Shown one piece after another: positions 23,310-62,600 of a stretch of 64,000 bases of DNA. A program made the position numbers and the translations under genes. The notes under the pieces are model-generated. The model was not told the DNA's origin, did not search any database, and worked only from the letters and a program-made list of their open reading frames with translations. How positions within the stretch are numbered: the stretch's first letter is position 1; every line of letters starts with the position of its first letter. This DNA comes from Candidatus Nanopelagicus limnes (GTDB taxonomy: Bacteria > Actinomycetota > Actinomycetes > Nanopelagicales > Nanopelagicaceae), in NCBI RefSeq assembly GCF_002287885.2, contig NZ_CP016768.2:1-64000 (forward strand). Reading direction: 5' to 3'.

Positions 23310-24293
23310 TTAATTCAATCTTAAAATCACGTCTACTATTCTTGCTACACCAAAACCATCTATTTTGGTTAAAGCAGATTGCGATAATTCTTGCCTTAGT
23401 CCTCGGTCTATCACTAATCTTCTTATATTTTCAAAATTGAGATTAAAGCCACCCACAAGACTAAAGTGTCCTATACCAATCGCAATTTTATTATGTGTTT
23501 GAAATTCAAAATTATCTCTCTGATTATCAAACCCCAAAGCAATACCAAGTGGAAAACCACATGAGAGAAATTCCCAACTAGATGTTCCCGATAGAGTTAA
23601 AACTAGATCAGAATCAATTAAGTCTCTTTCAAGATAACTACCGATATTTCTTTGTGAAAATCTATAATCGAGCATGTGAAGCAAATTCTGTGCATTCGAA
23701 AATAATATTGCTTGAAACTGCTCGTCAAGTTTAATTAGTTCTCTTGCTACTTTTGGGACGAATCCTAATGGGTCAGTACCACCTCCAACCACTAGAATTT
23801 TAATTTGACCCTGAGCATTAATCTCACTTAATCTAAAGCGAATTTCTTTCAAGGATTTTCTAATAGGTATGTAGTTTAATCCACTTTTTAATTTATTGTT
23901 TGAAATTCCAAACTCCAGCCCTATCTGCTTATTAGTACCACAATGGATATAAAAATCTGCCAAATATTTTGGCGTTCCAATCTCAACAAGCGCAATAATT
24001 TTGAACCAATTTTCTTTTTTTAGAAAATTATGATTAGGGTTTATGGTGTAAGAATCTATTATTAATACATCTTGCATAGGGTTAAATACAAAATTCTCTT
24101 CCTTTACAAGTTTTATTCTCCCTATCATTTGCTCAAGTAGTTCAGTAAGCCACGGTAGACCAACAATATTTCCCACAAAAATAACATCAAGATTTTCCTC
24201 TAACATTTTTTCAATAATTGAATAAACTCGCATGACATGCCCAGAACCCATCTGGTCAGAAGCGTCAGCTCTAAAAACATATCTTCTTTTCAT
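23310..24293 (-). CDS. pseG: PseG-like UDP-sugar hydrolase (pseudaminic acid pathway)
   Basis: PseG hydrolyses UDP-2,4-diacetamido-2,4,6-trideoxy-L-altrose to the free sugar before PseI condensation. The 327-residue GT-B-like protein has the family N terminus FRADASDQMGSGHVMR, where the GxGH His is catalytic. A second Rossmann half has VVGGGTDP and TLSGTSSWE. It is divergent from pseB with a 65-bp gap, so the two promoters probably lie back to back. Sequence divergence from well-studied PseG, and the likely N-formyl substrate, leave exact specificity open. Confidence 0.82.
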   Translation of the reverse strand: MKRRYVFRADASDQMGSGHVMRVYSIIEKMLEENLDVIFVGNIVGLPWLTELLEQMIGRIKLVKEENFVFNPMQDVLIIDSYTINPNHNFLKKENWFKIIALVEIGTPKYLADFYIHCGTNKQIGLEFGISNNKLKSGLNYIPIRKSLKEIRFRLSEINAQGQIKILVVGGGTDPLGFVPKVARELIKLDEQFQAILFSNAQNLLHMLDYRFSQRNIGSYLERDLIDSDLVLTLSGTSSWEFLSCGFPLGIALGFDNQRDNFEFQTHNKIAIGIGHFSLVGGFNLNFENIRRLVIDRGLRQELSQSALTKIDGFGVARIVDVILRLN

Positions 24294-24358: not shown

Positions 24359-25342
24359 GTGCAAATACTCGATAATGCTTCAATACTAATTACAGGTGGT
24401 ACTGGTTCAATAGGTCAAGCACTTGTAAGCCATCTCCTTCATAATTCCAAAGCTAGACGAATTATTATTTTTTCCAGAGACGAACTTAAGCAACATGAAT
24501 TACGAAAATATTTCAAGGATAATACTCGACTAAGGTGGTTTTTGGGTGACATAAGAGATCTGCAAAGATTGATACGTGCTTTTCATGGTGTTGACTTTGT
24601 CATACATGCAGCTGCGTTAAAGCAGGTTGATACAGGTGAATATAACCCAATGGAGTTTATAAAAACAAATGTGCTTGGAAGTCAAAACATAATTGATGCT
24701 GCAATTGAAACAAAGGTAAAAAAAGTCGTGGCTTTATCAACCGATAAGGCTTCTTCTCCAATCAATTTATATGGTGCGACTAAATTAACCGCGGATAAAC
24801 TTTTTGTTGCTGCAAATAATTATAGTATTTCTTACGGGACTGCGTTCTGTGTCGTGCGATACGGAAATGTAATGGGAAGCCGCGGTTCGGTCATTCCTTA
24901 TTTTCGCCAAATTGCAGAATCTGGAGAATCTATTCCTTTAACTGATATAAGAATGACAAGATTTTGGATCAGCATTCAGCAAGCTGTTGAATTTGTAGTT
25001 GAATCATTTGGAATTATGCAGGGAGGCGAGCTGTATGTGCCAAGAATTCCAAGCATGAAGCTCACGGATTTAGCAAAAGCAGTGGCACCAAATTCAAAAA
25101 TAATTGAAATTGGTATGCGCCCTGGTGAAAAACTACATGAAGAAATGATTTCGGCTGATGACAGCAGACGGGCAATTCTTGTTGGAAATCGATATGTAGT
25201 TACGCCTGTCATATCTGAATGGGGATATAAAGAACCCAGCGGAACTAGAATGGAAGAAGGTTCTGCATTTAGGTCCGACACAAATGATCTTTGGATGAGC
25301 GTTGATGAAATTAAATCCCATCTTACTAATTTTAGGCTGTAA
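24359..25342 (+). CDS. pseB: UDP-N-acetylglucosamine 4,6-dehydratase (inverting), PseB
   Basis: First enzyme of pseudaminic acid synthesis, making UDP-2-acetamido-2,6-dideoxy-L-arabino-hexos-4-ulose. The 327-residue SDR has GGTGSIG (cofactor), the catalytic STDKASSP segment and YGATK, and the family end motif RPGEKLHEEM. GTG start at 24359 with a strong AGGGAGG ribosome-binding site at 24347-24353. pseC follows after two bases. It heads an operon running at least to pseI. Confidence 0.93.
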   Translation: MQILDNASILITGGTGSIGQALVSHLLHNSKARRIIIFSRDELKQHELRKYFKDNTRLRWFLGDIRDLQRLIRAFHGVDFVIHAAALKQVDTGEYNPMEFIKTNVLGSQNIIDAAIETKVKKVVALSTDKASSPINLYGATKLTADKLFVAANNYSISYGTAFCVVRYGNVMGSRGSVIPYFRQIAESGESIPLTDIRMTRFWISIQQAVEFVVESFGIMQGGELYVPRIPSMKLTDLAKAVAPNSKIIEIGMRPGEKLHEEMISADDSRRAILVGNRYVVTPVISEWGYKEPSGTRMEEGSAFRSDTNDLWMSVDEIKSHLTNFRL

Positions 25343-25344
25343 AA

Positions 25345-26472
25345 ATGATCCCCTACGGCAAGCAATCTATATCGGAGGAAGATATTGCGTCGGTATCCAA
25401 AGCGCTTCGAGAAAACTTTTTAACAACAGGGCCCCTCGTAGAATTTTTCGAAAATGAAATTTCAAAAGTTGTAGGCGCGCCAGCCATATCTGTTTCATCA
25501 GGAACCGCCGCACTACATTGTGCATATGCAGCGATTGGAATAGAGCCTGGGGATGAAGTAATCACACCTCCACTAACCTTTATTGCGACCCAAGCAACAG
25601 CGGCACTCATGGGTGCGAAAATAGTTTTTGCTGATATTCAAGAAGATACTGGGAACATTGATCCCAAAGCTGTTGAAGCCGCCATTACAACTAGGACTAA
25701 AGCAATAGTAGCTGTTGATTACGCGGGCCATCCTGCAGATATGGATGAGCTAAGGTTAATTGCCGATAGACACAGTATCTATTTGATTGAAGATGCCTCC
25801 CACAGTCTTGGTTCAACCTATAAAGGCAGACCAGTTGGTTCACTTGCTGACCTAACTACTTTTTCATTTTTCCCAACAAAAAACATCACCACAGGTGAAG
25901 GCGGGGCTGTAAGTTCGCCGAAACCAGAGTTACTTGCAAAGGCTAAGAGTTTTTCACGGCAAGGACTTGTGAGAGATCCAAACAGTTTTATTCTGAATGA
26001 GGAAGGACCATGGCATCAAGAAGTTCATGAGTTCGGTCTTAATTACAGATTACCTGACATTCTTTGTGCCTTAGGGATAAGTCAATTGAGCAGAATTATT
26101 CATTTTAAGAGAATCAGGATGGATACCTTTAATTATTATGGCTCACTGCTTTCACATATTGATAATGTACGCATACCGATTATTAAAAGCTCCACCGAGC
26201 CAATGTGGCATCTGTACCCAATCAGGGTTAATGCGGATTCACGAAAAAGAGTATTTGAAGGATTAAGAACTTCAGGAGTAGGCGTGCAGGTTAATTACTT
26301 ACCCGCCCATTTGCACCCAGTATTTACAAAATATAGTCATATTGTTGGTCAATTTCCGGTAAGTGAGCTTTTTTATTCCCAGCAGATCTCGCTTCCTATG
26401 CATGTAGGAGTTAGTAAGAAGGAAATTGATTATATCTCAGAAACATTATTGAAGTTGATTTCTTATGAGTAA
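25345..26472 (+). CDS. pseC: UDP-4-amino-sugar aminotransferase, PseC
   Basis: DegT/DnrJ/EryC1 PLP enzyme that aminates C4 of the PseB product. The 375-residue protein has the PLP lysine at residue 179 in SFFPTKNITTGEGG and the DASHSLGSTYKG segment. Immediate position after pseB and resemblance to PseC support the assignment over other sugar aminotransferases. The stop overlaps the following formyltransferase by 8 bp. Confidence 0.92.
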   Translation: MIPYGKQSISEEDIASVSKALRENFLTTGPLVEFFENEISKVVGAPAISVSSGTAALHCAYAAIGIEPGDEVITPPLTFIATQATAALMGAKIVFADIQEDTGNIDPKAVEAAITTRTKAIVAVDYAGHPADMDELRLIADRHSIYLIEDASHSLGSTYKGRPVGSLADLTTFSFFPTKNITTGEGGAVSSPKPELLAKAKSFSRQGLVRDPNSFILNEEGPWHQEVHEFGLNYRLPDILCALGISQLSRIIHFKRIRMDTFNYYGSLLSHIDNVRIPIIKSSTEPMWHLYPIRVNADSRKRVFEGLRTSGVGVQVNYLPAHLHPVFTKYSHIVGQFPVSELFYSQQISLPMHVGVSKKEIDYISETLLKLISYE

Positions 26473-27250
26473 GAAAAAAATTGCATTATTTATTAATTCA
26501 AGATTAGGAATAAAAGTTCTAAAATATTTGCATTCTCAGCAAAACGCTTTGATCCAATTTATAGTGATTAATGAAGAAAATAAACGAAGTCAAGAGTTTC
26601 TAAAAGAACTAACTAATACGTTATCAAATTTAGATTCAGTCTATACAATAGTTGAGTATAACGATTTGGATTTAGAAAAACTCCCTGAATTCGAATATGG
26701 CGTTTCTGCGATGTTTGGTCATATAATTGAAGATAAATTAATAGACAAGGCAAAAAAAGACTTTGTGAATTTACACCCGTCCTTACTTCCTATTGGTCGG
26801 GGTGCAAACCCAATTTCTTGGTCTGTTATTGACAATAAACCTCAAGGTGTCACCATACATAAATTAACAAGTAAATTAGATGCAGGAGATATTTACGTTC
26901 AGGCTCAGGTTGACTTTAGAATCGAAGCCAATGCAGCTGCTATCTACGTCAAGTTAACGGAATCATTGCTTGGATTATTTGTAAACTTTTTTCAGGATTG
27001 GATTAGTGGAAATTTGATAGCAAGTAAGCAGCCTGAATTAGGGGTTTCTTCGCACCGGATTTCTGATTTGGAGTCGGTAAGAAAAATTGACGCCAAAGAG
27101 ATTCTAACAGCCGAGCAATTTGTCAGAAGAATTCAAGCATTGGACTTCAGTAATGGAACTTCCGCGGTTTTTCAAGATGCGACTGGTATAGAATGGAGCA
27201 TTAGATTATCCCTCGAGGCTAAAAATAAAACTTGGGGGGTTCCAGATTGA
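26465..27250 (+). CDS. Sugar N-formyltransferase in the PseH position
   Basis: A 261-residue protein of the methionyl-tRNA formyltransferase fold. Catalytic residues are visible: Asn102 and His104 in VNLHPSLLP, and Asp139 in KLDAGD. Its C terminus lacks the standard tRNA-binding domain. It lies between pseC and pseI, where pathways for diacetamido pseudaminic acid carry the acetyltransferase PseH; no PseH-like protein occurs in the window. The inference is transfer of formyl from 10-formyl-tetrahydrofolate to the 4-amino group of the PseC product, leading to a 7-formamido nonulosonate. Confidence 0.8.
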   Translation: MSKKKIALFINSRLGIKVLKYLHSQQNALIQFIVINEENKRSQEFLKELTNTLSNLDSVYTIVEYNDLDLEKLPEFEYGVSAMFGHIIEDKLIDKAKKDFVNLHPSLLPIGRGANPISWSVIDNKPQGVTIHKLTSKLDAGDIYVQAQVDFRIEANAAAIYVKLTESLLGLFVNFFQDWISGNLIASKQPELGVSSHRISDLESVRKIDAKEILTAEQFVRRIQALDFSNGTSAVFQDATGIEWSIRLSLEAKNKTWGVPD

Positions 27251-28272
27251 AACTAGTTACACAGAAGCCCTTATTTATAGCTGAGATTTCTGCTAACCAT
27301 CTTGGAGATTTTGAACGAGCCAAGAAATTGGTAACTGCAGCCATCGGCGCAGGAGCCACTGCGGTAAAATTCCAAACTTATACTGCTGCAACCATGACTT
27401 TGGATTTGAATACTCCAGAATTTAGAATTTCGGATGACCACGCTCTTTGGGGCGGAAAGAAACTCTATTCGCTTTACGAAAGTGCGCATACACCCTGGGA
27501 GTGGCACGAAGATTTGTTTAACTTGTGTAGGGAAAGAAGTGTTATTCCATTTAGTTCCCCCTTTGATTCAACGGCTGTTGACTTTCTTGAATCTTTGGGT
27601 GCACCCATGTACAAGATCGCATCAATGGAGACTGGCGACCACAAATTGATAAGAAGGGTGGCAGAAACTGGAAAGCCACTGATAATTTCCACTGGAGCGA
27701 CTGAATTAGAAGAGATTGATGAGTTAGTCGAAGTTGTGAGAAAAACTGGCAATTCAAACTTGACTCTATTAGTATGTACGAGTTCTTATCCGGCGAAACC
27801 AGCCGATGCGCACATTTTTCGAATGAAATTGTTAAGAGATAGATTCGGAGTAAAAGTTGGTCTTTCTGATCACACTTTAGGCATTGGCGTGAGCATTGCT
27901 GCAATAGCCCTTGGGGCAGTGGCTATTGAAAAACACATAACAATTAAGAGAAGTGATGGAGGGCCGGATGGAGCATTCTCGATGGAGCCTCACGAATTCA
28001 AACAATTGGTTGAAGAGGGAACTTCGGCTGCATTATCTCTTGGTTCAGAAAACTGGAGTATGCAAGAATCTGAAAGGGAATCTAGAAGAATAAGGCGATC
28101 TTTATATGTAGTTAAGGATGTACAAGCTGGAGAGACTGTTACTGAACAGAATATCCGCGCTATTCGTCCAGGAGGTGGAATAAAACCGAAGTACCTACCT
28201 AACTTAATTGGAAGAAAATTTCTTAAAGAAGTTCCTGCTGGAACTCCGCTAGATTTCCTCTTTATCGAATAA
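27247..28272 (+). CDS. pseI: Pseudaminic acid synthase (NeuB family), PseI
   Basis: Condenses the hexose with phosphoenolpyruvate to give the nine-carbon acid. It has a TIM-barrel NeuB domain (about 8-260) with AEISANHLGD, KFQTY, STGATE and EKHITIKRSDGGPDGAFS. A C-terminal SAF/antifreeze-like domain (about 275-338) has RRSLYVVKDVQAGE. The TTG at 27247 is preferred over a TTG at 27232 because GGGGGG at 27234-27239 is then a ribosome-binding site 7 bp upstream; it overlaps the previous stop as TTGA. It ends the left pse operon. Confidence 0.92.
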   Translation: MKLVTQKPLFIAEISANHLGDFERAKKLVTAAIGAGATAVKFQTYTAATMTLDLNTPEFRISDDHALWGGKKLYSLYESAHTPWEWHEDLFNLCRERSVIPFSSPFDSTAVDFLESLGAPMYKIASMETGDHKLIRRVAETGKPLIISTGATELEEIDELVEVVRKTGNSNLTLLVCTSSYPAKPADAHIFRMKLLRDRFGVKVGLSDHTLGIGVSIAAIALGAVAIEKHITIKRSDGGPDGAFSMEPHEFKQLVEEGTSAALSLGSENWSMQESERESRRIRRSLYVVKDVQAGETVTEQNIRAIRPGGGIKPKYLPNLIGRKFLKEVPAGTPLDFLFIE

Positions 28273-34466: not shown

Positions 34467-35039
34467 TTGGCTTCACACCCTTATTTTGATTATTTGAAAG
34501 GCTTGCTATCGATTTCAGAGAGTGACTTAAATTCCGCCGCAGAAAGTATTTTAGAATGTATTTCAAACCAAAACTCCATCTGGATTATGGGAAATGGTGG
34601 AAGCGCAAGCACATCTGAGCATTTTGAAACAGATCTATCATTTATCCGAAAAGGTAATTCTTTTACAAAAACAAAAGTGTCGGCATTGACTGCTAATAGT
34701 TCGCTAATCTCAGCGATTGCAAATGATATTGGATATGAGAACATATTTTCTCACCAACTCTTTCGAAGGGCTGAATCTGGTGATTTATGCATTCTAATTT
34801 CGGCTTCAGGTAATTCAGAAAATCTCATTAAAGCCGCGAGTGCAGCTAAAGAAATTGGACTTCGTACTCTGGGGTTGCTGGGATTTGATGGTGGAAAATT
34901 AGGTCAAATCCTTGATAATTCTATAATTATTCGAACTGAAATAGGAAAATATGGGCCGGTAGAAGATATACATCTAACAATCTGTCATGCGCTCTCTGAA
35001 ATTGTCGGCCGTAAATTAGTTTCACCTGGTGCCCTTTGA
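34467..35039 (+). CDS. gmhA: Sedoheptulose-7-phosphate isomerase (SIS domain)
   Basis: First enzyme of heptose synthesis, converting D-sedoheptulose 7-phosphate to D-glycero-D-manno-heptose 7-phosphate. The 190-residue SIS protein has MGNGGSASTSEHFETDL and the second sugar-phosphate site ISASGNSENLI, plus the conserved C-terminal ICHALSEIV. The start is TTG at 34467 with GGAAGG at 34450-34455. Presence of hddA and an hddC-gmhB fusion downstream supports the heptose role. The stop overlaps the next start as TGATG. Confidence 0.88.
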   Translation: MASHPYFDYLKGLLSISESDLNSAAESILECISNQNSIWIMGNGGSASTSEHFETDLSFIRKGNSFTKTKVSALTANSSLISAIANDIGYENIFSHQLFRRAESGDLCILISASGNSENLIKAASAAKEIGLRTLGLLGFDGGKLGQILDNSIIIRTEIGKYGPVEDIHLTICHALSEIVGRKLVSPGAL

Positions 35040-36067
35040 TGAAAATCCTAGTCACTGGAAATCTTGGATATGTAGGGACGGTTACCTCGGTATATTTGAA
35101 AAATCAAGGGTACGATGTTACGGGATTAGACAATGGATTTTATAGAGACTGCATACTTGTTCCAATTGAAAATGAAATTTTTACGAAAAACAAAGACATT
35201 AGAGATGTAGAAGTATCTGATTTCACGGGCATAGATGTTGTTGTTCACTTGGCCGCACTTTCAAATGATCCAATTGGTGAACTTGATCCGAATCTCACTC
35301 TTGAAATTAACTATTTAGGAGCAGTTAGAACAGCCAAAATGGCAAATAAGGCTGGTGTAGAAAAGTTCATATTCATTTCTACTCAAAGTATCTATGGCAT
35401 ATCGTCGAGCTCTGAAGAATTGGATGAGGACAATTCCATAAAGAATCCTCAAACTGCCTATGCATCCAGCAAATGGAGAGCGGAGCAAGAAATTCTGGCT
35501 ATGTCAGACTCAAGTTTTATATCAACCGCACTTAGACCTTCGACTGTATTCGGCTGGAGTCCTCGGCTTCGATCAGATATCGTATTTAATAATTTAATTC
35601 TCACTGGGCTTAAGCAAAAAAGAATTGATGTACATTCAGATGGGACGCCTTGGCGGCCAATAGTTCATATTCTGGACTTAGCTCGGGCGATTGAGGTATG
35701 CATTAAGGCTAATAGCGAGAGAATTTCAGGACACTCATTCAATATAGGTGTTTTGAATGGAAATTTCACAGTGAAACAACTCGCTGAAGCAGCCCAGGAA
35801 TGTCTCGACGGAATTCCTATCGCTTTTAAAACAGAAAACATCGTTGACCCAAGAAGTTATAAAGTTTCATTCGAAAGAGCGCAAAAGGAATTAGGTTTCA
35901 CGGCTAAAGTGGGCCTGAATGCTGGCGGAGCTGAAATTGTTTTGGAATCTAAGAAATTAATTGGGGAAGGTATAGATCTTATGGACCGAAAAACTAATAG
36001 ACTTCTGCAAATAAAATACCTACTTGAAAATGGTCTTATTGATGGCAGTCTCAGATTTAAACAATGA
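35039..36067 (+). CDS. NAD-dependent epimerase/dehydratase (extended SDR)
   Basis: Sugar-nucleotide-modifying SDR of 342 residues, with cofactor motif GNLGYVG (7-13), catalytic Ser/Thr region STQSIYG and YASSK. The ATG at 35039 overlaps the gmhA stop. It lacks a clear dehydratase Thr-Asp-Glu pattern, so epimerase or reductase activity on the GDP-heptose is more likely than 4,6-dehydration. Exact reaction unknown. Confidence 0.8.
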   Translation: MKILVTGNLGYVGTVTSVYLKNQGYDVTGLDNGFYRDCILVPIENEIFTKNKDIRDVEVSDFTGIDVVVHLAALSNDPIGELDPNLTLEINYLGAVRTAKMANKAGVEKFIFISTQSIYGISSSSEELDEDNSIKNPQTAYASSKWRAEQEILAMSDSSFISTALRPSTVFGWSPRLRSDIVFNNLILTGLKQKRIDVHSDGTPWRPIVHILDLARAIEVCIKANSERISGHSFNIGVLNGNFTVKQLAEAAQECLDGIPIAFKTENIVDPRSYKVSFERAQKELGFTAKVGLNAGGAEIVLESKKLIGEGIDLMDRKTNRLLQIKYLLENGLIDGSLRFKQ

Positions 36068-37292
36068 TTACGTAACGATAGATAAGTGCCGGATTTGCAA
36101 TTCCTCAGAAATCGAAGAAATTCTGGATCTTGGTATTCAACCGCTAGCAAATAATCTTAGGGAAATTACCGATAGATCTGACGAGAAGAAATTTCCGCTT
36201 ATCCTCGTGCGGTGCAAGAACTGCACATCTATTCAATTGTCAGTTAATGTAAACCCAAAATTGATGTTTCAGGACTACTTATGGGTGACTGGAACAACAG
36301 AGACGGCACGTAAACACTGTGAAAATTTGGCCCAAGAAGTCATTAAGTATTCGATGGATACCGCAGGAGTGCTAGAAATTGGTAGTAACGATGGAACTTT
36401 ACTTAGGGAGTTTAGGAAATTAACTAGTGGTCAGATTCATGGGGTAGACCCAGCTAAAGAGATTTCTGATTCAGCGAGAGCGAATGGCATAAATATTCAT
36501 GCAGATTTCTTTAATTTGGATTTTGCAACCAGTTTTGAAAAAGTATTTGGAACAGTAGATATCGTAATTGCTAGAAATGTTCTTTCACACGTTCCAGACT
36601 TAATCAATGTAATGAACGGTATTGATAAGTTATTATCAGCTGAAGGAATCTTTATTGTTGAGTTTCATGAGGCATCAAGAATCTTGAATGAAATTCACTA
36701 TGACTCGATTTACCATGAGCATACTTTTTATCATTCAATAAAGAGTATGACCGAAGCCCAATCCAAAGTTGGTCTGATTCCTTTTGACATTATGGAAAGT
36801 CCAATTAGCGGTGGATCATTTGTTCTAATCTCCTCCAGGTCAGCAAGAGTGCCCAGCCAAAGACTGCTTGATGCAATAAAGAGAGAGGAATCACTTGGAG
36901 TTTTGAGTGAGGACGCTTGGCATAATTTCGCAACATTGGCCACTAAGAATTTAGAAGAAATTAATGAATTTTTGACATTAAACTCGGAGAAGAAGATCCG
37001 TGCATTTGGTGCTTCCGCGCGGAGCTCTACCTTAATGAATGCGATTGGCGAAAAAGCGAAAAGCCTTGAATCTATTGCTGATAATAATCCCTTGAAGTGG
37101 GGCAAGCTTTCACCGGGTAATCATTTGAGGATAGATTCACCTAAGATCGCAATCCAAAGTGACACCGAGATCGTTTTTATCTGCCCATTCAATTTCGAGG
37201 GCGAAATTGTTAAATACCTACGTGATGAACTGAAATGGCACGGAGAAGTTTTCTTGCCTCTCCCTGGACAACCAAGAGTTTATGCAATCTGA
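36042..37292 (+). CDS. NDP-sugar C-methyltransferase-like protein with N-terminal zinc site
   Basis: Three-part architecture known from TylC3/NovU-type deoxysugar C-methyltransferases: a zinc-binding N terminus (Cys16, Cys19, Cys58, Cys61), a SAM domain with VLEIGSNDGTLL, and a C-terminal Rossmann-like domain with GASARSSTLMN. It would add a methyl branch to a keto sugar. The ATG at 36042 is chosen; longer in-frame starts at 36024 and 36030 exist, deeper inside the previous gene. The overlap with the SDR is 26 bp. Confidence 0.82.
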   Translation: MAVSDLNNDYVTIDKCRICNSSEIEEILDLGIQPLANNLREITDRSDEKKFPLILVRCKNCTSIQLSVNVNPKLMFQDYLWVTGTTETARKHCENLAQEVIKYSMDTAGVLEIGSNDGTLLREFRKLTSGQIHGVDPAKEISDSARANGINIHADFFNLDFATSFEKVFGTVDIVIARNVLSHVPDLINVMNGIDKLLSAEGIFIVEFHEASRILNEIHYDSIYHEHTFYHSIKSMTEAQSKVGLIPFDIMESPISGGSFVLISSRSARVPSQRLLDAIKREESLGVLSEDAWHNFATLATKNLEEINEFLTLNSEKKIRAFGASARSSTLMNAIGEKAKSLESIADNNPLKWGKLSPGNHLRIDSPKIAIQSDTEIVFICPFNFEGEIVKYLRDELKWHGEVFLPLPGQPRVYAI

Positions 37293-43435: not shown

Positions 43436-44668
43436 TCACTTAACGTATTTAGCTAACACTGTTGCCATTGAATTAGCAATTTTACGAGAAGTTTGTCCTT
43501 TCAATGCATATCCACCCATATAGAATCCTAGATAAGAAACCTCTTGTAATTCTTCTGCAATTGGGCATAATCCCTTCGAATAATCTGTTTTAACAGTTTC
43601 GAGCGTCCATGGAAATCCGGTAGACCCATAAGCGATTTTTTGCTGAAAAATTGGTAAGAGATGTAGGTTTTGATATTTTGTGGAGATACCAAGAATTCCA
43701 TTTTTCTTTAGTTCTTCTGCAAGAATAAATTTGTTCACTCTCATTTTGTCTTTAACAATTTTAAGTGGGTAAACATAATACGCATGCGTATTTTCTTGCG
43801 GCACTTTTGGTGTAACGATACCAGGCAGATCCTTAAGAATTTGATTAAACTCTGACGCGTTTTCTTGTCTCTGGTTAACAATACTTTTCAGTTTCTTAAG
43901 TTGCTCTATGCCAATAGCCGCTTCAATTTCTCCCATTCTAAAATTGTAGCCAACGATATTTATGAGATTTTTTGAATTATCTGTCTCAATTACTGATTCA
44001 CCATGGTTTCTGATTAACCTAATCCTTTCCGCAAGGTCCGGATTGTTTGTGACAACCATCCCACCTTCACCAGTATGGATATGTTTATGATAGTTGAGAC
44101 TAAAAACTCCGATATCGGCTATAGTTCCTGCAAACTTGTTTTGATAAAGTGCTCCTGGTGCTTGGGATGTGTCTGATATAACCCTTAATTTATAACGAGT
44201 TGCTAAATTCATAATTTCAATCATTTCGCAAGATTGTCCGAATATGTCAACAGCTAAAATCGCCTTAGTTCTTGGGGTGATTTTGGAGGCGATACTTGTC
44301 GCAGAAATGCAAAAAGTGTCGGGATCTATATCTGCAAAAATCGGAATTGCATTCCAATGTAAAATTGCCATGGCAGTTGCTGACATTGTCCAAGGCGATG
44401 TTATAACTTCGTCTCCAGGTTCTATTCCGATGGCGCCTAGGGCTGCAATTAATCCAGATGTAGCCGAATTCACTGATAACGCATGATTTGTTTCAAAATA
44501 ACTTGCCCATTTTTCTTCAAATTCTTGAATCTTTTTACCGCCATTAAAGTCCGGATGTTTCGAACCCAGAAATCTTGAAAGCTCGCCTGATCTCATAACA
44601 GATTTCACGGCTCGCATCTCTTTCTTACCTATGCTGTTATGCGGTTCAAAGCATTTGTTAATGTTCAT
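43436..44668 (-). CDS. DegT/DnrJ/EryC1 sugar aminotransferase
   Basis: PLP-dependent transaminase of 410 residues, with SATSGLIAAL, the PLP-phosphate/ring contact DTSQAPGA and the lysine in SLNYHKHIHTGEGGM. It differs from PseC and is on the opposite strand, between a transferase and a Gfo/Idh oxidoreductase. Together with that oxidoreductase it could install an amino group on a second sugar nucleotide. Substrate not known. Confidence 0.87.
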   Translation of the reverse strand: MNINKCFEPHNSIGKKEMRAVKSVMRSGELSRFLGSKHPDFNGGKKIQEFEEKWASYFETNHALSVNSATSGLIAALGAIGIEPGDEVITSPWTMSATAMAILHWNAIPIFADIDPDTFCISATSIASKITPRTKAILAVDIFGQSCEMIEIMNLATRYKLRVISDTSQAPGALYQNKFAGTIADIGVFSLNYHKHIHTGEGGMVVTNNPDLAERIRLIRNHGESVIETDNSKNLINIVGYNFRMGEIEAAIGIEQLKKLKSIVNQRQENASEFNQILKDLPGIVTPKVPQENTHAYYVYPLKIVKDKMRVNKFILAEELKKNGILGISTKYQNLHLLPIFQQKIAYGSTGFPWTLETVKTDYSKGLCPIAEELQEVSYLGFYMGGYALKGQTSRKIANSMATVLAKYVK

Positions 44669-45657: not shown

Positions 45658-45746
45658 GAATTCTCCAATTTTTGACCAAATTTACAAGTTGAATCGTACT
45701 ATTGAGAAACACTATAGTTAGTACATTCCAGATGGAGACAAGCCAA

Positions 45747-46454
45747 ATGAATTCAAGAATTGCAGTTATTCCTGCAAGAGGTGGCTCCAAGAGACTACCC
45801 GGCAAGAATATACGCACGATGGAGGGAATCCCTCTTATCGGTCGGACCATTAGCTTACTCTTAGAAAGTAATTTTTTTGATGAAGTGTTTGTTACCACCG
45901 ATAATCAAGAGATTGCGAAAATTTCCAAGGAATTTGGTGCCACCATCCCATTTCTTCGAGACAAGAACCTCTCGGACGATTTCACTCCAACCCAACCTGT
46001 TATTAGTAATTTCTTATCTGAACTTAGCTCCAAATTAGCAATTGATCCTGAATTCTGCTGTTGTGTATATTCCTCGGCATTCATGCTTCCAAAGCATGTT
46101 TTTTCGGAAACATTCAATCTTTTGACTGCAAAAAACGATTGTGATTTTGTAGCGACCATTCTTAAATATTCGCACCCAATTCAAAGAGCAATGACTCTAA
46201 ATAAGGTTACAAACGCTGTAACTTTTTTGAATCCGGAAAATTTGGCTACTAGAACCCAGGATTTAGCTGAGACTTACTTTGATGCAGGTCAGCTATATTG
46301 GGGAAGAAGTAAGGCTTGGAAAGAAATGCGCCCTATTTTTGATAAAACAACCGTGGGCTATCCACTAGAATTGAACTCAGTTGTTGACTTAGATTCACAA
46401 GATGACTGGCTCAAAGCCGAAGAATTGTTCAAGGTTCGGAATTTTCAACAATGA
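45747..46454 (+). CDS. pseF: Pseudaminic acid cytidylyltransferase, PseF
   Basis: Activates the nonulosonic acid with CTP, giving CMP-pseudaminate. The 235-residue protein starts with the NeuA/PseF signature AVIPARGGSKRLPGKN and has TTDNQEIA and a C-terminal DLDSQDDW. The ATG at 45747 with GGAG at 45734-45737 is preferred over an upstream ATG at 45702. It lies about 17.5 kb from pseI, separated by the oxidase/E1 and heptose modules. Confidence 0.88.
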   Translation: MNSRIAVIPARGGSKRLPGKNIRTMEGIPLIGRTISLLLESNFFDEVFVTTDNQEIAKISKEFGATIPFLRDKNLSDDFTPTQPVISNFLSELSSKLAIDPEFCCCVYSSAFMLPKHVFSETFNLLTAKNDCDFVATILKYSHPIQRAMTLNKVTNAVTFLNPENLATRTQDLAETYFDAGQLYWGRSKAWKEMRPIFDKTTVGYPLELNSVVDLDSQDDWLKAEELFKVRNFQQ

Positions 46455-46496: not shown

Positions 46497-47225
46497 ATGA
46501 ATAATAGTAGTCTGAGATTTGCTGTACTCACATCTACAAATTTTCCACTTAAAGAGTACATCTTCGCAAAGCTTTTATCAGCGAATTTACTACCTGATGT
46601 TATATTTGCAAAAGAAAATGGAATTAATCAAACGGATCAAGGCTTACTAAAGAATCGATTTGAATCCCTGATAAGAAAATCAAATAATGGAAACACTTCA
46701 AATATGTTTTCAGAGGTAAACATCGCGACTTTTGGTGATCCCGAAGTGCAGAAAATTCTAGTCGAAAAAGATATTAAATTTGCAGTAAACCTTGGATTAG
46801 GAGAAAAATTGAAATCGAAAGATCTATTAGAACTCGACATGGGTGTTATAAGTTGCCATCCTGGGAGATTGCCAGATTATAGGGGTTCAATGTGTCCTGA
46901 ATGGGCTTTATTGCAAGGAATGCCAATATATAATTCCATTTTTAAAATGAATCATGAATATGACGAAGGACCAGTGTTGCTGGAAAAGGAAGTGGTATTG
47001 AATTATCCAATTAGTTATGAAGATTTCAGAACAAAAATCTTCACGGAAGGCGTAGAACTTCTTACGGAAGCCATTTCTTCATTGATTTCTTCCAAGCTAT
47101 CTACGGCTAATTTTAGGGACCAAGGTGTCGGCACTACATTTAGACCAATGAATTCTGATACGTTTAACACCATAAAAGAGAGATTTTTTACAATTGATAC
47201 TTCTAGTGAGGAAAGTTTAGAATGA
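46497..47225 (+). CDS. Second formyltransferase-family protein (catalytic Asn replaced)
   Basis: A 242-residue formyltransferase-fold protein with SCHPGRLPDYRG and MNHEYDEGP. His121 and Asp156 keep the normal 35-residue spacing, but the usual Asn two residues before the His is Ser119. It may be a divergent N-formyl or hydroxymethyl transferase. The stop overlaps the amidotransferase start by 4 bp (ATGA), linking it to the nitrogen-adding genes that follow. Confidence 0.7.
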   Translation: MNNSSLRFAVLTSTNFPLKEYIFAKLLSANLLPDVIFAKENGINQTDQGLLKNRFESLIRKSNNGNTSNMFSEVNIATFGDPEVQKILVEKDIKFAVNLGLGEKLKSKDLLELDMGVISCHPGRLPDYRGSMCPEWALLQGMPIYNSIFKMNHEYDEGPVLLEKEVVLNYPISYEDFRTKIFTEGVELLTEAISSLISSKLSTANFRDQGVGTTFRPMNSDTFNTIKERFFTIDTSSEESLE

Positions 47226-48373
47226 GTTTCAGTCTACCAATTCCAAATTTACAGTATTGCGTCCGTTGTTGCATGCCCGAAACAAACGAAGGCGTGGCCT
47301 TCGATAAATTTGGACAATGTTATGCCTGTATTTCGAGTGAGCAAAAAATAAGAATTGATTGGGTTTCAAGAGAATTGGAATTGCGAAAACTTTTGGATCA
47401 TTACAAGTCTTTAGAAAATGACTATGATTGTATTGTTCCAATAAGTGGCGGAAAAGACAGTACATTTCAATTACATGTACTTACCAAAGTATACAAAATG
47501 CGAGTCTTAGCAGTGACTTTTAGCCATAATTGGTTTACAGAGGTTGGTAAGTATAATCTTCAAAATGCAATAGAAAAATTCGACGTTGATCACATAATGT
47601 ATACACCATCCCGAAATCTAGTCAACAGGATTGCCAGGGAATCATTATTTACAATAGGAGACTCTTGTTGGCATTGTCATGCAGGAATTGGCGCTTTCCC
47701 GCTGAAAGTAGCTGTTGATTATAAAGTACCACTACTTATTTGGGGTGAATCAGTTTCTGAACTATCTGGTCGCTCTACTCTTGGAAATCCCATTATAAAG
47801 TTTGACAGAGATTATTTCTTGAAAGTTTCATCTAAAGTTAAGGCTGAAGTATTAGTTGGTGAGAGCTTGAATGAGAGAGAATTAAGACCTTTCGTTCCTC
47901 CCGAAGCCGAGGTCATAGAGAATTTGGGTGTAGTTGGAATACACCTTGGAGACTATCTTTTTTGGGATGATGAAAGGCAGATGGAATTTGTCCGCGACGA
48001 GTATGAGTGGAAGCAATCAAAAGTAGAGGGAACCTATAAGAATTATAAGAGTGTGGAATGTAAAATGGCAGGTGTCCATGATTATTCTAAGTTTCTTAAA
48101 AGAGGATTCGGAAGAGCCACCGATCATGCTTCTGCAGATATTCGCGCTGGATTATTGACGAGAGAACAAGCTTTTGAGCTAATTATGCAACATGACGGCA
48201 AGAGGCCAGATGCCCTAGATTTCTATTTGGAGATTACAGGGTTCACCGAAAATGAATTTGAGATAGTTTTGGCAAAATTTAGAGATGGTTTGAAGTTAAG
48301 AACTATGTCGGAAATGGAATTTACTTCACAGCTAAATAAGTATAGAGATGCTATAAAAAATAATGCAGAATGA
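47222..48373 (+). CDS. N-acetyl sugar amidotransferase (WbpG/PseA/LegA-like)
   Basis: PP-loop ATP pyrophosphatase-type enzyme that converts an acetamido (or formamido) group into an amidino group. The 383-residue protein has Cys13/16/17 (YCVRCC) and Cys33/36 (CYAC) at the N terminus and the PP-loop ISGGKDST at about 74-81. Family members modify nonulosonic acids (PseA in Campylobacter) or their precursors. It overlaps the following amidase by 11 bp. HisH/HisF-like ammonia suppliers used by WbpG are not in the window. Confidence 0.85.
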   Translation: MSFSLPIPNLQYCVRCCMPETNEGVAFDKFGQCYACISSEQKIRIDWVSRELELRKLLDHYKSLENDYDCIVPISGGKDSTFQLHVLTKVYKMRVLAVTFSHNWFTEVGKYNLQNAIEKFDVDHIMYTPSRNLVNRIARESLFTIGDSCWHCHAGIGAFPLKVAVDYKVPLLIWGESVSELSGRSTLGNPIIKFDRDYFLKVSSKVKAEVLVGESLNERELRPFVPPEAEVIENLGVVGIHLGDYLFWDDERQMEFVRDEYEWKQSKVEGTYKNYKSVECKMAGVHDYSKFLKRGFGRATDHASADIRAGLLTREQAFELIMQHDGKRPDALDFYLEITGFTENEFEIVLAKFRDGLKLRTMSEMEFTSQLNKYRDAIKNNAE

Positions 48374-49673
48374 AATCACTGATTTTTCAGAAATGAATAA
48401 ATTGATTCTAGAAAAAAAATTAAAGGTAAAAGAGTTGGCAGAAATGTCACTCGAACGTATTGATTTAGTTGACAAGAATATAAAGTCATTCATTCATTTA
48501 GACAAAGAGTTACTTTTTAGACAAGCTTCTAAAATGGATGATGAGGTTTCAGTTGGTAGATTTCGAAAGAATCTTGGGCTAACAATTTCGGTAAAAGACA
48601 ATATTTATGTTGACGGTTTAGGAATCGCGATGGGAACTGACCTCTGGAAAGTTGAAAAATCTGGCTTTGATGCGCGAGTTGTTAGTAATCTAAGGGCAAG
48701 CGGTGCGCTAATCATCGGTAAAACTAAAACGGCAGAATTTGCAATTCACAAGCCACCAGACACAAAAAATCCAATCGACAAAACGGCATCACCTGGAACA
48801 TCTTCGACGGGATCCGCTGCATCAGTGAGCGCAGACTTAGTAATGGCCAGTATTGGAACACAAAGTGCGGCTTCAATTATTAAACCGGCGAGTTATTGCA
48901 ATGTTATTGGGTTTAAACCATCATACGGTTTGATTCCAAGAACTGGAATTCTAAAAACTGCTGACACTTTAGATACCGTAGGTTTCTTTGCAAATGACCT
49001 CGATATTCTTTCGAAAGTTTTTACCTCTAGCTTAGTCAGTGGGATCGATCACCCCTTCAATAATATTGTCGAAAGAAATACTGGAGAAGATAAGACAGTT
49101 CGTATAGCGCCACTGCATAACTCCAATCTCTGCTCACCTCGCGTTCAAGAAGATTTCATTTCAAACTGCCAAAAATTATTCAAGTACAGCAGCTTTATTC
49201 AAATTGATTTGAATTTGAATGAGTTAATTGAGCAAGCGCGTTTAACACATAGAGCGCTGTATTACGGAAACGTAAGTTATTTTCTTGCGCAAGACCTAGC
49301 CATCAGTATAGGTGAATTAAGTGAAGAGTTACGGGAAGTTATTGAATTTGGAAATGGCGTCACATCCTCAGAATTAGAAGAGGCCCGCAATCAACAGGTG
49401 TATTTCGCATCCATATTAGATCGATATTTTGAACAAACTGATTTTATTATAACTCCGTCAACATTCGATGTCCCACCAGATTATGGAATTTCTGACCAGA
49501 TTAATGACTCATCTTTTTTTTGGACACTTTGTGGCAATCCAGCGATTAGCCTCCCGACTACAATTAGTTTGGATGGGCAAAGATTTGTCGGCTTACAGAT
49601 TATCGCTAGAAAATATAATGATTATGGTTTAATACATTTTGCAAGAAATTTACAAATGAAATGGGGAATATGA
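48363..49673 (+). CDS. Amidase-signature enzyme (GatA/FAAH-like)
   Basis: A 436-residue amidase with the Ser-cisSer-Lys triad visible: Lys78 (SVKDN), Ser147 (GTSSTGSA) and Ser171 (AASIIKPA). The 24-residue spacing between the two serines equals that in FAAH. Sequence between them is less glycine-rich than usual. No GatB or GatC is nearby, so it is not the tRNA amidotransferase. The overlap with the PP-loop amidotransferase suggests it releases ammonia for that enzyme or trims an amide on the sugar. Confidence 0.82.
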   Translation: MQNEITDFSEMNKLILEKKLKVKELAEMSLERIDLVDKNIKSFIHLDKELLFRQASKMDDEVSVGRFRKNLGLTISVKDNIYVDGLGIAMGTDLWKVEKSGFDARVVSNLRASGALIIGKTKTAEFAIHKPPDTKNPIDKTASPGTSSTGSAASVSADLVMASIGTQSAASIIKPASYCNVIGFKPSYGLIPRTGILKTADTLDTVGFFANDLDILSKVFTSSLVSGIDHPFNNIVERNTGEDKTVRIAPLHNSNLCSPRVQEDFISNCQKLFKYSSFIQIDLNLNELIEQARLTHRALYYGNVSYFLAQDLAISIGELSEELREVIEFGNGVTSSELEEARNQQVYFASILDRYFEQTDFIITPSTFDVPPDYGISDQINDSSFFWTLCGNPAISLPTTISLDGQRFVGLQIIARKYNDYGLIHFARNLQMKWGI

Positions 49674-60834: not shown

Positions 60835-62067
60835 GTGTTAACAAAAGAGGTTTTAGCTCACAAGTATGTGAAGCGATTATTTATCGCCCGCTTTATTTCA
60901 AATTTTGGAAATGGTATGGGGCCAATCGCACTTGCTTTTGGAATCTTAGCTTTACCAAATGGCTCCGCAAATATGTTGGGATTTGTATTGGGCACAACCA
61001 CAGTTGTCTTCTTACTTATGGCACCTTTCGGTGGGGTGATTGCTGATAAATATGGCAGGGCTCGAATGGTTGGCCTAACTGACATGGCAGCGGGCGCAGT
61101 TCTGTTCATACAAGTTTTCTACTTTGCAAAAGGTGAAGTGCCCCTAGCAATTCTTTTAATTACAAATGGATTTTTTGGTTTGATGTGGGGAATCTTCTGG
61201 CCAGCATTCTCAGGACTCATGCCAGCAGTTTTGCCGGAAGAAGGTTTGCAAAAGGGAAACGCGTTAAATGCTTTTATGACAAATGCCGGCGTAATTTCAG
61301 GAGCAGCGGTTGCAGGGATACTGATAGATATATTTGGCGTGGCATTTACCCTAGCAATTGATGCTGCTAGCTTTTTTATCTCAGGACTTATGATCTTTAC
61401 CTTTCGCCACCTAACACCAAGGGCGCAAAAGACTGAAAACACCATGCTTGATGACTTAATTCATGGCTGGAAGATATTTTTATCATTTAGATGGATTGTA
61501 ATTATCGTTTGCGCTTTCTCATTTATCGTTATGTGCTGGGCAGCTGCAGAGAATGTATTAGGACCGTTGATTGCACTTGAACACTTTAATGGCGCTAAAT
61601 CTTGGTCCTTTGTAATTACCGCTGAGTCAGCTGGATTAATAGTTGGTTCAATTATTGCAATAAAAGTAAAGCCTAAGTATCCAATGCGATTTTTAATGAT
61701 CTCATCCTTCACAATCACTTTTTATATTTGGTCAATGGCTAAACCACAATCACTTTTAATGATTGCATTTGGTGCTTTTCTATTTGGAATCACCTTAGAT
61801 CTTTGGGGAACACTTTGGTATACAGCTCTGCAGCGAAAGGTGCCAAGGGATTCACTCTCTAGAGTTTCTGCCTTTGATGCAATGGGTTCAATGATGTTCA
61901 GACCGGTAGGGCTTGCAATTGCCGCGCCACTTTCAACCTTAGTCGGCATTGAAAACTTTTTACAGATTTTAGCTGCGATCACCGTTGTTGCAATTGTGGT
62001 GCCACTTCTACATCCGCAGGTTAGAAATATGAGCTATGAAGATTTACCTAGAAAGGCTGATCGGTAG
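60835..62067 (+). CDS. MFS transporter (MFS_3 / efflux-like)
   Basis: A 410-residue protein with about 12 transmembrane segments and GGVIADKYGRARMV as the loop 2-3 signature. The first helix region RLFIARFISNFGNGM and overall look are close to drug/siderophore exporters of the MFS_3 group. GTG start at 60835 after CCAG. The 3' end overlaps the convergent GNAT gene by 34 bp. It differs clearly from the preceding MFS protein, so not a recent duplicate. Confidence 0.82.
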   Translation: MLTKEVLAHKYVKRLFIARFISNFGNGMGPIALAFGILALPNGSANMLGFVLGTTTVVFLLMAPFGGVIADKYGRARMVGLTDMAAGAVLFIQVFYFAKGEVPLAILLITNGFFGLMWGIFWPAFSGLMPAVLPEEGLQKGNALNAFMTNAGVISGAAVAGILIDIFGVAFTLAIDAASFFISGLMIFTFRHLTPRAQKTENTMLDDLIHGWKIFLSFRWIVIIVCAFSFIVMCWAAAENVLGPLIALEHFNGAKSWSFVITAESAGLIVGSIIAIKVKPKYPMRFLMISSFTITFYIWSMAKPQSLLMIAFGAFLFGITLDLWGTLWYTALQRKVPRDSLSRVSAFDAMGSMMFRPVGLAIAAPLSTLVGIENFLQILAAITVVAIVVPLLHPQVRNMSYEDLPRKADR

Positions 62068-62600
62068 TCCTTGCTACTCATTTCATAAATTTCTTCTAAG
62101 CCATCCTCTTCATCTATTTGCTCTCCTACTAGTTTAAAGCCAAGTTTTTTAATAATGTGTTGAGAAATTAAGTTATCTGGTGAGACGGTGTAGCGAAGAG
62201 TATTTACTGCTGGAGTATTTACAACCCAGCCCCACATGCCGTGAAGTAATTCCTGGCCATAGCCTTTACCTTGATAAGCCTTATCAACTCCAAAACCAAT
62301 CTCAATCATGCCATTTATATCTGGGCCATCATGAAATCCGGCGGATGCAATAATTATTTGCTCACTCTTTAATACCACTACGCGAAGTAAATAGTTTGCA
62401 AGCTCTGGATTTGCTGTAATTCTTGGAGCTCGATACTTAATTGGATTTGGATTGTTGGCAAAGTACTTAAGCGGATCAGTAAATCCTCGATTACTCCATA
62501 AAATTGGGTGAGCTAAATTCTGCACAAGTAGTGGGTATTCATCTGGCAGCACGGTATGCAGGTAAAGCCGGTTGGTCTCTATGGTGAGATCTTGATCCAT
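62034..62600 (-). CDS. GNAT-family N-acetyltransferase (RimJ/RimL-like)
   Basis: A 188-residue acetyltransferase with TNRLYLHTVLPDEYP at the N terminus, the acetyl-CoA loop YQGKGYGQELL (Q/RxxGxG) and VSPDNLISQHIIKKLGF. This layout is that of RimJ/RimL-type protein or small-molecule acetyltransferases. It overlaps the convergent MFS gene and is divergent from htrA. Confidence 0.85.
   Translation of the reverse strand: MDQDLTIETNRLYLHTVLPDEYPLLVQNLAHPILWSNRGFTDPLKYFANNPNPIKYRAPRITANPELANYLLRVVVLKSEQIIIASAGFHDGPDINGMIEIGFGVDKAYQGKGYGQELLHGMWGWVVNTPAVNTLRYTVSPDNLISQHIIKKLGFKLVGEQIDEEDGLEEIYEMSSKDYRSAFLGKSS

Follow-up and report, generated by a model that had tools for sequence, protein, structure and literature searches.

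A formyltransferase gene in place of pseH in the pseudaminic acid locus of Candidatus Nanopelagicus limnes

In the canonical route to pseudaminic acid, PseC introduces a 4-amino group which PseH then acetylates. The locus of Candidatus Nanopelagicus limnes carries a formyltransferase gene, here called FT1, between pseC and pseI, which raises the question of which acyl group this amino group receives and which sugar is finally made. The window is the whole stretch of DNA analyzed, 64,000 nucleotides of a genome which consists of one contig of 1,238,108 bases; the genome was searched by family models and by protein. Genes of the window were assigned by NCBIfam models with curated cut-offs and FT1 by Pfam.

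Gene set and gene order of the locus

The following pathway genes were found in the window.

23310-24293, minus strand: pseG-like UDP-sugar hydrolase (TIGR03590, E 4.7e-20, 72 bits, cut-off 153.6; GxGH motif present)
24359-25342, plus strand: pseB, UDP-GlcNAc 4,6-dehydratase, inverting (TIGR03589, 464 bits, cut-off 408)
25345-26472, plus strand: pseC, aminotransferase giving UDP-4-amino-4,6-dideoxy-L-AltNAc (TIGR03588, 405 bits, cut-off 423.5)
26465-27250, plus strand: FT1, predicted sugar 4-N-formyltransferase in the PseH slot (PF00551, 62 bits, cut-off 26)
27232-28272, plus strand: pseI, pseudaminic acid synthase (TIGR03586, 446 bits, cut-off 340)
45702-46454, plus strand: pseF, CMP-pseudaminate cytidylyltransferase (TIGR03584, 245 bits, cut-off 206)

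The row of pseB, pseC, formyltransferase and pseI described in an earlier note on this DNA was recovered at the same positions, with PseB and PseI above their cut-offs and PseC slightly below. The family call of PseC is backed by TIGR03588 scoring far ahead of other families and by 65-66% identity to PseC of syntenic relatives. FT1 overlaps both neighbors, starting before the end of pseC at 26472 and ending behind the start of pseI. The pseG-like gene and pseF were missing from the earlier note. The former is divergent from pseB at a distance of about 65 bases; TIGR03590 is its best family, and it has the place and orientation of pseG in two members of the same family, G115 and G080, with 33-35% identity. 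PseB (74-75%), PseC and PseI (66-72%) are also shared with these two genomes. pseI is the sole NeuB-family gene of the genome. Judged from the family matches, the pathway appears complete apart from PseH.

The gene order in G115 is pseG(-) pseB(+) pseC(+) pseH(-) pseI(+) pseF(+), and because the order is the same, FT1 occupies the PseH position of this relative. In G080 the order is pseG(-), pseB, pseC, GNAT(-), PIG-L(-), formyltransferase(-), pseI and pseF, and in a congener (G015) a single frame (L065:6659-8086), divergent from pseI, encodes a PseH-PseG fusion. The genomes of the family relatives measure about 0.7-2.2 Mb. The claim that the slot between pseC and pseI holds a formyltransferase and not a GNAT holds good, with the Pfam match and intact N102, H104 and D139. 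Apart from PF00551 (Formyl_trans_N), FT1 gave no Pfam domain and no GNAT signal.

A PseH homologue elsewhere in the genome acting on the same sugar had been named as one observation that would overturn the formyl reading. With the PseH model, nothing in the whole genome scored above the cut-off (top match 20 bits against 93), and with PseH of the syntenic relative as query, nothing in the genome fell below E 0.02. The GNAT of the window at 62034-62600 was considered as an unrecognized PseH and rejected, as only its generic CoA-binding half matches a profile of five PseH-like GNATs from relatives.

Other parts of the surface-sugar island have a different relationship. The SIS, SDR and methyltransferase genes at 34467-37292 are 74-94% identical to those of another genome, G038, compared with 64-68% for the pse genes, so the island seems to be mosaic. 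In G038 (L068:1-2849) pseC is followed by genes for a WbqC-like protein and an SpsG-like hydrolase, with no PseH recognized nearby, and this is perhaps a third way of substituting the 4-amino group.

FT1 among the known formyltransferases

When FT1 is aligned with 11 relatives, its catalytic N102, H104 and D139 show no variation. Its top sequence matches in PDB are the LgrA F domain (E ~3e-20) and PseJ (E ~2.5e-18), and other sugar formyltransferases rank lower. In the predicted structure (mean pLDDT 80), fold matches along nearly the full length were obtained with VioF, the F. tularensis 4-N-formyltransferase (4NV1), Rv3404c and WbkC (Z 21-23; TM by query 0.60-0.77), at 16-24% identity; those entries which are titled with a ligand carry TDP-Qui4N or GDP-perosamine. 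PseJ matches the core of the predicted fold (TM by target 0.71-0.73). Thus the catalytic triad and the fold which mark a sugar N-formyltransferase of the Formyl_trans_N family are both found in FT1.

PseJ is the known enzyme to which the proposed role of FT1 corresponds. Reimer et al. reportedly described PseJ structures in 2018 and proposed a route to 7-formamido CMP-pseudaminate, which is said to have been rebuilt in vitro up to formylation. The PDB entries 6CI2, 6CI4, 6CI5 and 6EDK are the 'formyltransferase PseJ' of the Gram-positive Anoxybacillus kamchatkensis, and the title of 6CI4, in the part available, names a PseJ crystal soaked with UDP-4-amino-4,6-dideoxy-L-A..., taken here as the PseC product. 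Both proteins share the core NLH...P..W...GVTIH...D.G, and FT1 likewise belongs to a pse cluster whose genome has no PseH above cut-off; it probably formylates the pseudaminate precursor as PseJ does. PseJ differs in being a short chain of ~190 residues without C-terminal hairpin, whereas FT1, with 261 residues, is longer in its N-terminal part and carries a C-terminal hairpin like that of VioF. The two are 34% identical over 124 residues.

In the tree, PseJ, the LgrA F domains and short relatives formed one clade (support 100/99) with FT1 outside. Forcing FT1 into this clade was not rejected by the AU test (p 0.19). Grouping FT1 with L074 and L070, the two formyltransferases from pse clusters, was not rejected either (p 0.11), but it received no support in the tree. 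As the branch of FT1 is long (terminal length 2.3-2.8), its position in the tree is unsure. On the whole FT1 looks like the longer VioF-type 4-N-formyltransferases more than the short PseJ lineage.

With only 34% identity to PseJ, and with enzymes of TDP-Qui4N and GDP-perosamine as the closest folds, homology does not fix the sugar specificity of FT1. FT1 might act on another nucleotide-linked 4-aminosugar, for example TDP-Qui4N or Fuc4N, with the pseudaminate precursor being acetylated by an unrecognized GNAT. The predicted fold matches to VioF, the F. tularensis enzyme and WbkC would agree with this, as would the Planomonospora relatives of FT1, which adjoin a different DegT aminotransferase. 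It is nevertheless an unlikely explanation: the FT1 frame overlaps both pseC and pseI, the top PseH match of the genome reaches less than a quarter of the cut-off, and the GNAT of the window resembles PseH in its generic half alone.

The divergence of FT1 with its long end branch, together with the weak PseG match, could be taken to mean that FT1 is degenerate or vestigial, the precursor stays unformylated and the pathway is incomplete. Open overlapping frames, the intact catalytic triad and the presence of all other steps make this very improbable.

The GC content of FT1 is 35.1%, against 41.4% for pseC and 42.5% for pseI. Among the matches listed in 296 genomes of the order (FT1 alignment, E 1e-20), the others are as long as Fmt or PurN in their reading frames, and FT1 therefore looks recently acquired. 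With FT1 alone as query, no relatives were found in the genome contig and viral contig collections, and plasmid and phage searches gave distant formyltransferases and nothing closer.

The predicted route and the genes downstream of pseF

We consider it probable, with good confidence, that the locus encodes a pseudaminate route which places an N-formyl and not an N-acetyl group on the 4-amino position supplied by PseC. PseB and PseC would convert UDP-GlcNAc to UDP-4-amino-4,6-dideoxy-beta-L-AltNAc, and FT1 would transfer a formyl group from 10-formyl-THF to N4 in place of N-acetylation. After removal of UDP by PseG, PseI would condense the 2-acetamido-4-formamido-trideoxy-L-altrose with phosphoenolpyruvate, and PseF would activate the resulting Pse5Ac7Fo as the CMP-sugar for a surface glycan. 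Compared with the canonical PseB-C-H-G-I-F route of Campylobacter, Helicobacter and G115, the remaining steps and the gene order are alike, with FT1 in place of PseH. The reading is directly supported by the gene set, the position and catalytic residues of FT1, the lack of a recognizable PseH in the genome and the PseH slot of the syntenic relative; the substrate of FT1, its product and the later steps are what we infer from these. Against it stand the weak PseG match (72 against 153.6 bits) and the low identity of FT1 to PseJ. The 7-formamido pseudaminate predicted in the earlier note emerges as the best-supported reading, given the synteny with G115 and other pse clusters with a formyltransferase near pseI, and Pse5Ac7Fo is its presumed product.

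The final sugar may be further modified, since pseF lies 17 kb away beside three other genes.

46497-47225, plus strand: FT2, divergent formyltransferase-like protein with Ser for the catalytic Asn, SCHPG (PF00551, 29 bits; weak PDB matches)
47222-48373, plus strand: WbuX/WbpG-type sugar amidotransferase (TIGR03573, 324 bits, above cut-off)
48363-49673, plus strand: GatA-type amidase (TIGR00132, 195 bits, below cut-off)

FT1 may act as proposed with Pse5Ac7Fo as a mere intermediate, FT2, WbuX and the amidase converting an N-acyl group to another group, for example an amidine, so that the displayed sugar is more elaborate. This is possible, though we hold it only tentatively. It is favored by the contiguity of the three genes with pseF on a single strand, the three frames overlapping each other, and by G115, which has HisH-like, HisF-like and WbuX genes behind pseF, the usual amidotransferase set. 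However, FT2 is very divergent and lacks the catalytic Asn (SCH against NLH in other formyltransferases), and nearby aminosugar genes at 43436-44668 could be its partners instead. A search of 200 other genomes of the order gave no match to FT2 at E 1e-12. HisH and HisF are absent from the pseF-FT2-WbuX-amidase cluster of the window, where the amidase stands beside WbuX instead; speculatively, the amidase may replace them as ammonia source. A further sugar modification by FT2 and amidine formation by WbuX are possible functions.

Formyltransferases in other pse clusters

A search with a DNA pattern of the active site in a collection of 84,980 species genomes gave 16 loci. One Omnitrophota MAG (L074) has pseB, pseC, an SpsF-like cytidylyltransferase, a pseG-like gene, a formyltransferase and pseI, and RI_26 (L070) has pseC, SpsF-like and pseG-like genes, a double formyltransferase frame, PIG-L and pseI. 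No PseH-like GNAT was found in the examined stretches of these two clusters. PseI scored above cut-off in 13 of 396 Actinomycetota genomes including the present one. Among the other 12, two have a formyltransferase directly before pseI, which is 47% identical to PseJ in one (L087) and 56% over 120 residues in the other (L089); in five (L088, L092, L095, L097 and L098) a PseH-like GNAT adjoins pseI. At L089:1-990 (G428) the PseJ-like formyltransferase and a PseH-like GNAT lie in a single open frame directly before pseI, possibly encoding a bifunctional enzyme.

A PIG-L deacetylase gene adjoins the formyltransferase beside pseI-type genes in G080 (L066:7402-8834), in an unclassified bacterium (L070:2717-5004) and in an archaeon (L076:116-2914). 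The formyltransferases of L066 and L070 are of the FHxG-motif type without the usual Asn. Such a pair may be a module which exchanges N-acetyl for N-formyl.

Formylated nonulosonates have been reported from other organisms. Pse5Ac7Fo, the product predicted here, occurs in a polysaccharide of the Gram-negative Pseudoalteromonas distincta KMM 638, where it is known from chemical structure, according to the passages of PMC3210612 and PMC7281560 which cite it. Halorubrum sp. PV6 likewise has a formylated nonulosonate, and its cluster includes a candidate formyltransferase gene (PMC6137143), but it is an archaeon, and its sugar is legionaminic acid with the formyl group at N5. Geobacillus flagellin islands carry Pse genes without PseH, and formyltransferases are present in some of them (PMC5109656). 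With the formyl-type route established by PseJ and Pse5Ac7Fo known, this locus is a further example and its chemistry is not new. The rarity attributed earlier to a formyl-type route in a small actinobacterium was thus overrated, as the PseJ step is established in Gram-positive Anoxybacillus and two of the 12 other PseI-positive Actinomycetota have a formyltransferase beside pseI.

What goes beyond the known chemistry is the possible recruitment of FT1 separately from PseJ. It is conceivable, although we would put it below an even chance, that FT1 is no orthologue of PseJ but a second formyltransferase for pseudaminate, long and VioF-like and independently recruited, which replaced PseH in situ in one family and feeds a module of FT2, WbuX and amidase (not HisH/HisF), leading to an undescribed N-acyl or amidine pseudaminate.

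The locus suggests that a one-gene swap at a fixed place of a conserved operon can alter which acyl group a surface nonulosonic acid bears on N7, within one family of actinobacteria with very small genomes. Such acyl swaps would change the outer face which is met by phages and grazers.
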